This document shows positions 23,407 to 26,216 of a DNA stretch of 64,000 nucleotides, in pieces. The DNA comes from an uncultured Bacteroidales bacterium (GTDB taxonomy: Bacteria; Bacteroidota; Bacteroidia; Bacteroidales; UBA932): positions 1 to 64,000 of the forward strand of contig CASFGK010000018.1 of assembly GCA_949294195.1 (NCBI GenBank), written 5' to 3'. The position numbers and the translations under genes were made by a program. Within the stretch, counting starts at the first letter, position 1. Each line of letters starts with the position of its first letter. A model generated the notes under the pieces. The model saw only the letters and a program-made list of their open reading frames with translations, did no database searches and had not been told where the DNA came from.

Positions 23407-25093
23407 CGACCCTCTGGTGCACAGGTTTGATACCGGGGAGAACGGAATGCCTCTCCCGGAAAGATTCAACAATCCGTTCAGATACGCTACCGCTCAGGTC
23501 ATCTCCGAAGCTGCGAAGACTGTACTCGGGTACATCTCCTCCTCGGAGCGGCTTGTGCATGCCTTTTCCGAAGGGAAGATGCTGGGCGTGCTGGCAGTAC
23601 GTGACTCTGAAGGGAAGACCGGATTTCTTGCAGGGTTCTCCGGACTTGCCGGAGGGCGTAGCGTGCTGCCGTATTTCGTGCCTCCGGTACTTGACCTGAC
23701 TGATCCGACCGGGTATTTCAGACAGGAAGAAGCCAGGATAAACGGCATCGGCTCTTTGATAAAAGAGGCGGAAGCAAATCCGGAATTCGGATCTGCCATA
23801 CGGAATGCAGAGGCTGTAAAGACCGGATGTGAAAAAAAGATAAGGCAGTGGAAAGAGAGAATGGCGGAATCGAAAGCCAGGCGGGATGCACTGCGACTTT
23901 CAGGAGCGGACAAAACAACACTTGAATCCCTGATAAAGGAAAGCCAGTTTGAAAAGGCTCAGCTGAAACGGATTTCCGCAGAGTGTAAGGCCGCCGTTGA
24001 GGATGCGGCATCAGTATGCAGGAAGTTTTCCGACAGGATTGCCACATTGAAACGGCTGAGGCAGGAAAAATCAGAGAAACTGCAAGAATGGATATCCAGG
24101 AACATGGTGGTAGAGAATGCACTGGGTGAAAAGAAAAGTGTCTGGCAGATATTCTCGGAGCAGGGACTGGTTCCGCCCGGAGGAACCGGAGAATGCGCAG
24201 CGCCAAAACTGCTGCACTATGCCTATACGCACGGTCTGGAACCTGTGGCCATAGGCGAATTCTGGTACGGGAAAGACCTCGGGAACGAAGTCAGGCAGCA
24301 CGGAAGATTCTACCCCTCATGCAAAGGCAAATGCGGACCGCTTCTGAAATTCATGATGCAGGGACTGGATATGGAAACGGAACATCCGGAACCAGTTTCA
24401 GGAACTGCGGACTGCAGCGCAGCCATCCCGGCTGTCATATACGAAGACAGCGACATCATAGTAGCCGACAAACCTTCGGGCATGCTCTCCACACCAGGAA
24501 AAACCGGAGAAAAATCCCTGATTGAAATCCTGTCCGAAAAACTCGGGACCGGTCTTCTGGGGGTACACAGACTGGACATGGATACATCCGGAATCATAAT
24601 ATACGCGAAAAATCCCTGTGCGCAGAAAAACCTGCAAAGGCAATTCGAAACGGGTGAAGTCAGAAAAGAATACATCGCACTTCTGGATACTGCCGGCAAT
24701 GGCACTCCTGATGCCGTCAGCGGCCTACCGGTTTCCCGGAAAGCGGCAACGGACCTGAGCGGAACCATATCCCTTCCGCTTGCCCCGGACTATCTAGACC
24801 GCCCCCGCCAGAAAGTGGATTCCGGGCACGGAAAAAAAGCTGTGACCGGATACGAGGTCATAGGGACCGGCGAAGGATGGGTGAAAGTCCTGTTCCGCCC
24901 GATCACCGGACGGACCCACCAGCTGAGGGTACACGCAGCACACCGGCTGGGACTCGGCTGCCCAATCAAAGGAGACAGATTATACGGCAGTGCAGGTACT
25001 GCAGGGAGGCTGTGCCTGCACGCCTCCCGCATCAAATTCAGGCATCCTGTAACAGGCCTCCCGGTGGAATTGGCATCCGATCCGGAATTCTGA
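23393..25093 (+). CDS. RluA-family pseudouridine synthase with long coiled-coil N-terminal extension
   Basis: The C-terminal ~220 residues are an RluA-type catalytic domain: YEDSDIIVADKPSGMLSTP, the catalytic-Asp motif HRLDMDTSGI, KEYIALL, and FRPITGRTHQLRVHAAH. The N-terminal ~340 residues contain an alpha-helical, Lys/Glu/Arg-rich region (about 120-235) likely to form a coiled coil, flanked by short conserved-looking parts. It isomerises a uridine in rRNA or tRNA; the target site is unknown. Bacteroidota do carry such long RluA homologues of ~550 residues. The start ATG overlaps the end of the antiporter gene (translational coupling). Confidence 0.88.
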   Translation: MTRTDDPLVHRFDTGENGMPLPERFNNPFRYATAQVISEAAKTVLGYISSSERLVHAFSEGKMLGVLAVRDSEGKTGFLAGFSGLAGGRSVLPYFVPPVLDLTDPTGYFRQEEARINGIGSLIKEAEANPEFGSAIRNAEAVKTGCEKKIRQWKERMAESKARRDALRLSGADKTTLESLIKESQFEKAQLKRISAECKAAVEDAASVCRKFSDRIATLKRLRQEKSEKLQEWISRNMVVENALGEKKSVWQIFSEQGLVPPGGTGECAAPKLLHYAYTHGLEPVAIGEFWYGKDLGNEVRQHGRFYPSCKGKCGPLLKFMMQGLDMETEHPEPVSGTADCSAAIPAVIYEDSDIIVADKPSGMLSTPGKTGEKSLIEILSEKLGTGLLGVHRLDMDTSGIIIYAKNPCAQKNLQRQFETGEVRKEYIALLDTAGNGTPDAVSGLPVSRKAATDLSGTISLPLAPDYLDRPRQKVDSGHGKKAVTGYEVIGTGEGWVKVLFRPITGRTHQLRVHAAHRLGLGCPIKGDRLYGSAGTAGRLCLHASRIKFRHPVTGLPVELASDPEF

Positions 25094-25216: not shown

Positions 25217-25370
25217 TGCACACCTGCAGTTGGCATTTTCTTGGATATAGATGATTACCAACACATTACATGTCACACTCAACCCCAGGTGTAACATTTT
25301 CAGGCACACCTGCGGTAACGGATATGCCTCTGAATGCCGTAGAAAGCCGTTCTGCTACTGCAGGTGTGCA
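25217..25370. repeat. 14-bp perfect inverted repeat with two further inner half-sites
   Basis: TGCACACCTGCAGT at 25217-25230 is repeated as its exact reverse complement at 25357-25370. Inside, CAGGTGT (25286-25292) and ACACCTG (25306-25312) form another opposed pair, so four copies of the ACACCTG core alternate in orientation within 154 bp. This could be a repetitive extragenic element, a miniature mobile element, or alternative RNA stems. Confidence 0.6.
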
Positions 25371-25459
25371 GGAGAGGAACGTCAGCATCCGCATTTGCAG
25401 GAATCCAGTAATCAAACATTTGCCCGTATGATGTATTCCCAAGTCGTACCTGAGAGATG

Positions 25460-25575
25460 ATTGCCTGCCGTAATTGGTTCGGACGGCGTGGCCGCCCGTG
25501 GCCTTGTGAACGGGAGGGGCCCGCACTGAAAGTGTGGGAGGGATTTACTGTCCCGAACTGATTATGGCAGGTAAT
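25460..25575 (+). ncRNA. Structured RNA: 25-bp closing helix around two hairpins, plus strand
   Basis: Bases 25460-25484 pair with 25550-25575 over 25 base pairs with a single bulged C. Four of the pairs are G-U wobbles. The enclosed loop has a CCCGT/ACGGG hairpin (25495-25499 with 25510-25514) and a CCCGCACT/AGTGTGGG hairpin with a GAA loop (8 bp including one more G-U). All five wobbles are G-U only if the plus strand is transcribed; on the minus strand they would be A-C mismatches. This is strong evidence of a plus-strand RNA with a three-way junction. No family is recognised; it shows no RNase P, tmRNA or SRP signature, while a 6S-like or Bacteroidales-specific RNA remains possible. No clear promoter is seen; the ends beyond the helix are open. 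Confidence 0.72.
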
Positions 25576-25593
25576 AACTATAAATATAACGAT

Positions 25594-25618
25594 CGGTATA
25601 AACTAATGACTTATACCG
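25594..25618. other. 8-bp hairpin just downstream of the structured RNA
   Basis: CGGTATAA (25594-25601) and TTATACCG (25611-25618) are perfect complements around a nine-base loop. There is no U-tract after it on the plus strand, so termination is doubtful; it may be the last element of the RNA above or a protein-binding palindrome. Confidence 0.5.
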
Positions 25619-25682: not shown

Positions 25683-25746
25683 AAAACAAATAGGACGAAG
25701 TATTTCATGTCAAGCTTAACGCAGAAATAGCCGTCCTATTTGTTTT
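25683..25746. terminator. Bidirectional terminator between the RNA region and ndk
   Basis: A 15-bp perfect stem (25683-25697 with 25732-25746) has A-runs at one side and T-runs at the other, so it can stop transcription both of the minus-strand ndk operon (stop codon at 25749) and of the plus-strand RNA. The loop of 34 bases is unusually long and contains a further GCTTAACG...TAGC stretch. Confidence 0.75.
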
Positions 25747-25748
25747 AT

Positions 25749-26216
25749 TTACTTCTCGTCTGGAGCGTAAAGGTACTGATTCAACGGTGAAGGATACTCG
25801 CAGTAATCCTCCGGAGAAAAGAACCTGTCAAGCTCAATCCTGGCATTTTCCAGAGAATCAGACGTATGGACGATGTTCTCCTGTGCACTGAGGGCATAGT
25901 CTCCGCGGATAGTACCAGGTACAGCCTTGCGCGCGTTTGTCGCTCCCGCCATTTCCCTCACTACCTTTACGGCCTCGAATCCTTCCCAGCAGCAGAGGAT
26001 TACAGGAGCCGCTGTCATGCCGCTGCATAGCCACGGAAAAAACGGCTTGTCCTTAAGATGGGCATAATGTACGTCAAGTATCGCCTGGTCCAGCTGTTTC
26101 ATTTTGAGGGCGACCAGTTTGAGCCCTCTTTTCTCAAAACGTGAAATGACTTCACCTACAAGTCCCCTCTGTAGGGTCCCGGGTTTCAATATCACCAGTG
26201 TCCTTTCCATAATCAA
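25749..26216 (-). CDS. ndk: Nucleoside diphosphate kinase
   Basis: The 155-residue enzyme equalises nucleoside di- and triphosphate pools through a phosphohistidine. The active-site segment is ENIVHTSDSLENA with the phosphorylated His at residue 117 when the ATG at 26216 is used, the same number as in the E. coli enzyme, which supports this start over the Met two codons later. The nucleotide-binding N-terminus (ERTLVILKPGTLQRGLVGE) and ATNARKAVPGTIRGDY are intact. It lies 41 bp after the DUF1080 gene, with a strong terminator 3 bp behind. Confidence 0.95.
   Translation of the reverse strand: MIMERTLVILKPGTLQRGLVGEVISRFEKRGLKLVALKMKQLDQAILDVHYAHLKDKPFFPWLCSGMTAAPVILCCWEGFEAVKVVREMAGATNARKAVPGTIRGDYALSAQENIVHTSDSLENARIELDRFFSPEDYCEYPSPLNQYLYAPDEK

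Follow-up and report, generated by a model that had tools for sequence, protein, structure and literature searches.

The window analysed here, i.e., the whole stretch of 64,000 nucleotides, carries at positions 25460 to 25575 of its plus strand a palindromic element, called E below, whose limits come from its fold, from repeat searches and from a count of its pairs. E is flanked by two convergent open reading frames (ORFs) encoding a pseudouridine synthase (PF00849) and a nucleoside diphosphate kinase, ndk (PF00334), with the plus-strand ORF ending at 25093 and the minus-strand one at 25749. As stated in the initial annotation, this interval of 655 bp is the only long gene-free gap of the window, being the sole one above 300 bp in a simple scan for ORFs of at least 150 codons. 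No tRNA or tmRNA was found within the window. The whole window also gave no Rfam match at gathering scores, in agreement with the earlier statement that no family is recognised, and the three weak matches obtained near E below gathering (E-values of 0.84 to 2) all concern unrelated families, which speaks against the 6S-like RNA put forward at that time. A perfect 15-bp inverted repeat (AAAACAAATAGGACG/CGTCCTATTTGTTTT), found at 25683-25746 near the 3' end of ndk, resembles a two-way terminator.

The closing stem of the window copy, P1, pairs a 5' arm (25460-25486) with a 3' arm (25548-25575) delimited by pair count and alignment, which bears a single bulged C at 25554. It comprises 27 pairs, 22 of them Watson-Crick and five G-U (25463/25572, 25470/25565, 25475/25560, 25476/25559 and 25485/25549), with no other pair type. 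The long helix with a single bulge reported in the initial annotation is thereby borne out, although it had been counted as 25 bp, and its five non-Watson-Crick pairs are indeed all G-U on the plus strand. The sequence of the 5' arm often varies between sites, with complementarity retained. Folding of 25440-25600 gives -66.6 kcal/mol versus -47.9 (standard deviation 4.14) in 200 shuffled sequences, none of which equals it (z of -4.52).

The helix does enclose further structure, as had been proposed, but the two inner hairpins of the earlier description are better described as an H-type pseudoknot followed by one hairpin. Strand A of the pseudoknot (CGTGGCC, 25487-25493) pairs with A' (25500-25506), with an internal T.T mismatch in the window copy, while strand B (CCCGT, 25495-25499) pairs with B' (ACGGG, 25510-25514), A' and B' being placed from alignments. 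The hairpin P3 (CCCGC...GTGGG) spans 25520-25538 and includes a conserved G.U/G.T pair and an inner stem that covaries. It is followed by a conserved linker, AGGGATTTA (25539-25547), where many other copies form an additional mini-hairpin, P4, often GCGAAGC. In the clade of the window, E is preceded by the upstream portion of a larger repeat unit (25217-25459, plus strand) with inverted CACACCTGC/GCAGGTGTG motifs, from which some 85 bp separating two GCAGGTGTGC repeats are missing in the window copy. This upstream repeat has an iteron-like look and precedes E in G000, G029, G077 and G092.

Distribution and folded core of E

A 161-bp stretch of the window has seven matches in its own genome, window copy included, and matches 27 of 61 genomes (60 relatives and the own genome), every one of the same genus, with no match in the 24 searched genomes from other families. 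The exact core, CCCGTGGNNNNGTGAACGGG, is present in 137 of 300 genus genomes, with up to 21 copies (G272), and a reversed-pattern control gives none in all 300. A covariance model, R1, was made from 63 of 79 listed sequences, among them the window copy, which it matches at 25479-25565. R1 detects E in 124 of 151 genus genomes and in 53 of the 63 of good quality, with 1 to at least 29 copies per carrier, 29 being a floor because 29 candidates were scored per genome. Over 295 genomes of the order, R1 finds E in five, i.e., the own genome and four outside the genus, one of another genus in the same family (G424) and three of other families (G326, G476 and G506). G424, G476 and G506 carry variants of their own, whereas G326 does not, and the genomes being metagenome assemblies, a binning error is possible for single cases such as G326. 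At least 120 matching stretches lie in named genomes; the matches listed are Bacteroidales/Bacteroidia metagenome genomes, several of them named Candidatus Cryptobacteroides or Merdivivens, and we infer that the genus carrying E is Cryptobacteroides.

Four contigs of the own genome (L003, L004, L005 and L006) terminate in a block of about 140 bp that includes E and is 96-97% identical to a copy in the genome of another family (L054, L383; G326), owing to either recent transfer or binning error. In G476, five loci (L369, L370, L371, L373 and L376) carry two R1 matches each, one per strand and separated by about 50-120 bp, so that copies in this genome seem to come in inverted pairs. Carriage as phage or plasmid cargo was considered and rejected, since a search of 72,556 plasmid and 50,697 phage records gave no match and the viral contigs do not contain the exact core. 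Searches of an open-licence library gave no paper describing E, which is not proof of absence.

Homologues with covariation, the check asked for in the initial annotation, were found in relatives. Two alignments (31 and 25 copies) support four main helices, namely P1, A-A', B-B' and P3. A-A' pairs CRTGGCC with GGCCNYG and B-B' pairs CCCGT with ACGGG, the latter crossing the former and thus making an H-type pseudoknot. In the two alignments, 93.7% and 96.3% of cells are paired and 104 and 54 cells carry double changes; none of 500 shuffles reaches the observed values of paired cells, double-change cells or covariation score in either one, and sliding the partners by 1-3 columns lowers pairing to 32-57% in both. 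Other controls are less clear, as the number of pairs with a double change is reached by 0 and 2 of 500 shuffles and that of further pair types by 130 and 16. A-A' varies as GGCC/GGCC, AGCC/GGCT, GGTC/GACC, CG/CG and CA/TG, to which inspection by eye adds TGCC/GGCA. B-B' is invariant in the 56 genus copies (31 and 25), but since copies were chosen by core pattern, the constancy of B, like that of the outer CCC/GGG of P3, follows in part from how they were selected. The copies from outside the genus offer an independent look, and in these B-B' covaries (CCCTC/GAGGG and CCCAC/GTGGG, by eye). The core of E is an H-type pseudoknot with short hairpins, supported by covariation.

It is the plus strand that is under selection, as the initial annotation held, on account of an excess of G.T in the arms and of a P3 pair that is never A.C. 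Indeed, isolated arm mismatches throughout the family comprise 66 G.T, 29 A.C and 57 of other kinds (binomial p of 0.0002), and 48 copies lean to G.T, 17 to A.C and 57 to neither, these copies being related and thus less independent than apparent. The P3 pair in question is G.U in 36, A-U in 17, G-C in three and A.C in none of 56 sequences. The wobble pairs do not in themselves decide for RNA, because G.T also pairs in single-stranded DNA and the loop counts point at least equally to DNA. P3 loops are C(GNA)G in 28 of 99 distinct hairpins (28 of the 37 C-NNN-G triloops) and C(GNNA)G in 11, of which just one conforms to GNRA, an RNA motif; no hairpin has C(UUCG)G. These are raw counts on related copies, without a null set of loops. 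Of 219 copies, 149 contributed the 99 distinct sequences, 13 of which formed no hairpin, and the 70 others were set aside because of a differing architecture. C-GNA-G and C-GNNA-G loops are unusually stable in DNA, and a pseudoknot with loops of 1 and 3 bases fits RNA geometry better. The plus strand is stabler than the minus strand in 63 of 63 copies with DNA energies and in 50 of 63 with RNA energies. Folded single-stranded DNA fits the data about as well as RNA.

Arms, core inversion and gene context

The arms of E are complementary within a copy and often unlike between copies. Scored against its own 3' side, the 5' arm reaches a median of 46 and at least 24 in 122 of 133 copies, whereas 200 cross-copy pairings average 16.2 and five of them reach 24 or more. 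Eleven of the 133 copies fall below this limit, and seven of the 133 were graded LOW for little arm pairing. In G154, all 13 fetched copies differ in their outer arms, with a weak inner consensus visible and 21 inner bases common to L188 and L189. Closely similar arms are found in 11 of 13 copies of G089 and in seven of seven of G291, in both as after recent amplification, and also in the clade of the window, so that part of the arm variety is lineage-wise.

Eight pairs of orthologous sites match in both flanks at about 88% or better, and in four of them the core is inverted relative to its flanks. The inverted pairs are L002/L223, L310/L192, L312/L186 and L226/L295, and those of same orientation L001/L158, L020/L195, L075/L145 and L315/L319; a further pair, L305/L184, has one flank matched only. 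Among inverted pairs, the arms are alike in the first three and differ in L226/L295, and in L312/L186 the inner arm ends flip together with the core. Arms may also change on both sides at once, with two A-T to T-A exchanges in L020/L195 and a small block in L075/L145. Over nine ortholog pairs, including L043/L134 with just two usable positions, 41 arm pairs changed, six by double change, 13 via G.T, 19 by other one-sided changes and three otherwise.

Template switching is reported to homogenise arms and invert spacers (PMC8604942), and to make and keep hairpins (PMC8794818). Based on the sequence patterns described above, we infer that the arms of E are rewritten by template switching during replication, although the predominance of changes other than double ones among the 41 speaks against it. 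The same process could, by mutation instead of selection, account for the compensatory changes of P1, though less readily for those of the short pseudoknot helices.

With simple ORF calls, convergent placement is the commonest single context of the 122 copies with clear arms (35 copies). Thirty others lie within a long ORF, five between divergent genes, 21 in gene rows running against the plus strand and five along it, and 26 have one flank without a called ORF. In the 26 same-direction contexts the plus strand is antisense 21 times, so that read-through of the genes mostly does not produce it. A scan of the 133 copies for stop-to-stop frames in which E is flanked on either side by 60 codons or more gave 41 frames from 31 loci, and some of these frames will have arisen by chance. 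Many of the copies within ORFs are nevertheless genuine insertions. As read from the sequences, the hosts of such in-frame copies are presumably AroB, AroE-AroK, RibF and FolC, as well as what we take to be a SpoU-type methylase, an MtaB-like radical-SAM enzyme, a penicillin-binding protein and UvrD. Six of seven E-containing proteins scanned with Pfam have recognised domains on both sides of E; in the remaining one, which is FolC-like, the Mur_ligase_C match ends at E, with no domain recognised past it. In AroE of two species (L105, L109), E sits at about the same place in opposite orientations.

In RibF, E is found by R1 in the same loop in 13 of 30 fetched loci (12 clear and one weak, 14.8 bits), antisense in 11 and sense in two. 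The RibF frame is open through E in all 13, which argues that E is translated rather than removed. In species without E at this place (L402, L403 and L408), the loop contains other short palindromes or tandem repeats, and it is a hot spot for several repeat families. Between mnmG and ruvA, 14 of 20 fetched relatives have a gap of at most 53 bp and no E, four have longer gaps from which the exact core is absent, and E is present in G023 and G071 in opposite orientations and with different arms. A second long inverted repeat with another core and arms GGAGGTGATATAGGGGCAGCGC lies between mnmG and E in L190 (about 690-930), with partial matches elsewhere in G154 and in G001. Directly after mnmG, seven of the 20 relatives (L285, L288, L291, L295, L297, L298 and L303) show a GTTCCACGTGGAAC palindrome, which we take to be parS-like. 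A clean empty site was met neither in the ndk region (three relatives aligned and six more viewed), nor in mnmG-ruvA (the 20 fetched relatives and L190), nor in RibF (30 loci, 10 of them read by pattern), nor in the G001 and G029 stretches, because the sequence has diverged or other repeats occupy the site.

Nature of the element and related systems

E combines a covarying pseudoknotted core and a preference for one strand with many sites and either orientation at orthologous sites. It is probably a non-autonomous, selfish palindromic mobile element of about 105-250 bp, with template-switched arms and a putative mover supplied in trans. The folded plus strand, as single-stranded DNA or RNA, would be the form recognised and moved by this factor. 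After insertion, template switching during replication would keep the arms complementary, may spread complementarity into the flanks of E and may flip its core. Between its convergent neighbours, the pseudouridine synthase gene and ndk, the window copy is probably just tolerated and without function for them, and some other copies could have a host function. A bolder reading, which we offer tentatively, is that of a new class of mobile elements whose identity lies in a folded single-stranded core (pseudoknot and mini-hairpins), not in ends of a given sequence, with inverted repeats copied from, or homogenised with, the target; such ends would let the same core fit many gene loops, in either orientation and in-frame.

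That E acts as a structured non-coding RNA, or as an RNA control element working from its own putative transcript, is unlikely. Its pairing favours the plus strand, and H-type pseudoknots with short loops that covary are typical of RNA. Yet E is dispersed at unrelated genes in either orientation, within coding regions in both senses, and the prevailing antisense placement of its plus strand (21 of 26), together with the near absence of RNA-type P3 loops (C(UUCG)G in none and GNRA in one of the 99), fits such a role poorly. A stand-alone RNA gene would further lead one to expect a conserved single locus; the order-specific RNA suggested in the initial annotation, the interpretation of which is partly supported overall, is instead many dispersed copies, several of them inside protein genes and in either orientation. 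A terminator, insulator or mRNA-stabilising hairpin useful to the host at gene ends would account for the frequency of convergent placement (35 of 122), but leaves both the conserved pseudoknot and the copies inside coding genes unexplained, and the short mnmG-ruvA gap is free of E in the 14 relatives cited above, all of which makes this role improbable. A site-specific invertible switch is a very doubtful reading, even with four of eight orthologous cores inverted, as the arms of different sites often have no common recombinase-like consensus and as the inner arm ends that flip with the core in L312/L186 are those expected of exchange within arms.

Among candidate movers, neither Y1 transposases nor RVT_1 reverse transcriptases track E. 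Movement of a REP-like element as single-stranded DNA by a Y1 (RAYT/IS200-type) transposase would suit the higher stability of the plus strand, clearer with DNA than with RNA parameters, and the GNA-type loops, and Y1 matches are present in 110 of 151 genus genomes, with a weak E (27.3 bits) about 1 kb from one of the two Y1 matches of the own genome. However, R1 finds no E in 34 other Y1 loci, 30 of which also lack the exact motif, and at an E-value of 0.001 Y1 has no match in G013 (96% complete, with 10 exact copies of E), in the four carriers outside the genus, G424, G326, G476 and G506 (96-99% complete), or in G291 (60% complete), so that this mover is improbable as well. Still less probable is an intron- or retron-like RNA element reverse-transcribed by an RVT_1 enzyme: a strand-specific folded core enclosed by paired ends may resemble that of retron RNAs, but RVT_1 (PF00078) is found in four of 14 chosen E-carrying genomes versus five of 10 without the exact core, and in none of the four carriers outside the genus. 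An ORF of L185 that is Y1-like by a short motif was discarded, having no Pfam match at an E-value of 0.01. A larger autonomous form, suspected from a transposase beside L147 that is presumably IS1182-like, looks like an insertion of its own, since L322 has the same flank by E without it.

To our knowledge, palindromic elements inserting in-frame into proteins have been described mainly from Rickettsiales. With its many copies in many species of gut and rumen Bacteroidales, among them 13 RibF cases, E, taken as a mobile palindrome, forms a second large natural series, in which the movement of such elements and their accommodation by proteins become testable. If its active form is single-stranded DNA, E would be a natural dispersed DNA pseudoknot under covariation. 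It also carries a warning, as covariation and compensatory changes, which are usually taken to prove a functional RNA, can also appear in mobile palindromes, the arms of which may be maintained by DNA replication errors.

Several known systems share features with E. Like Rfam structured RNAs (6S and others), E has a covarying secondary structure, but it has no match at gathering scores and is dispersed, with copies inside genes. REP/BIME sequences with RAYT are likewise hairpins found at the ends of genes and may be active as single-stranded DNA; unlike them, several E-rich genomes are without a Y1 match and the repeats do not lie beside the gene (none of 34 Y1 loci), apart from the one weak case at about 1 kb in the own genome. 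MITEs and ERIC/RU are described as small and dispersed, intergenic and intragenic, and with open reading frames (PMC2759123). E resembles them in being small, dispersed and located both between and inside genes. It differs from MITEs in having no fixed terminal inverted repeats across copies, although copies of one lineage can share arms (G089, G291), and no parent transposon was found. The sites compared for a target duplication gave no clean empty counterpart from which to read it.

The closest known kind is that of the Rickettsia palindromic elements, which are dispersed palindromes of about 150 bp, lying both outside ORFs and in-frame within unrelated metabolic genes (PMC10969869). Compared by features, E works like them, being a short palindromic repeat in many dispersed copies that inserts in-frame into unrelated protein genes. 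It departs from them in that it encodes no single conserved peptide, being read in several frames and on both strands, in its conserved pseudoknotted core with arms largely free in sequence, in its flips between species and in its Bacteroidales host. Wolbachia has equivalents of the Rickettsia elements, and we know of no mover of their own for the latter. E is not filed as a member of this group, since the one-peptide feature fails and the comparison is by features rather than by sequence. Itself without match in Rfam and not met in the open-licence library searched, E is best filed as an element widespread in its genus and akin to the palindromic mobile elements tolerated by proteins.
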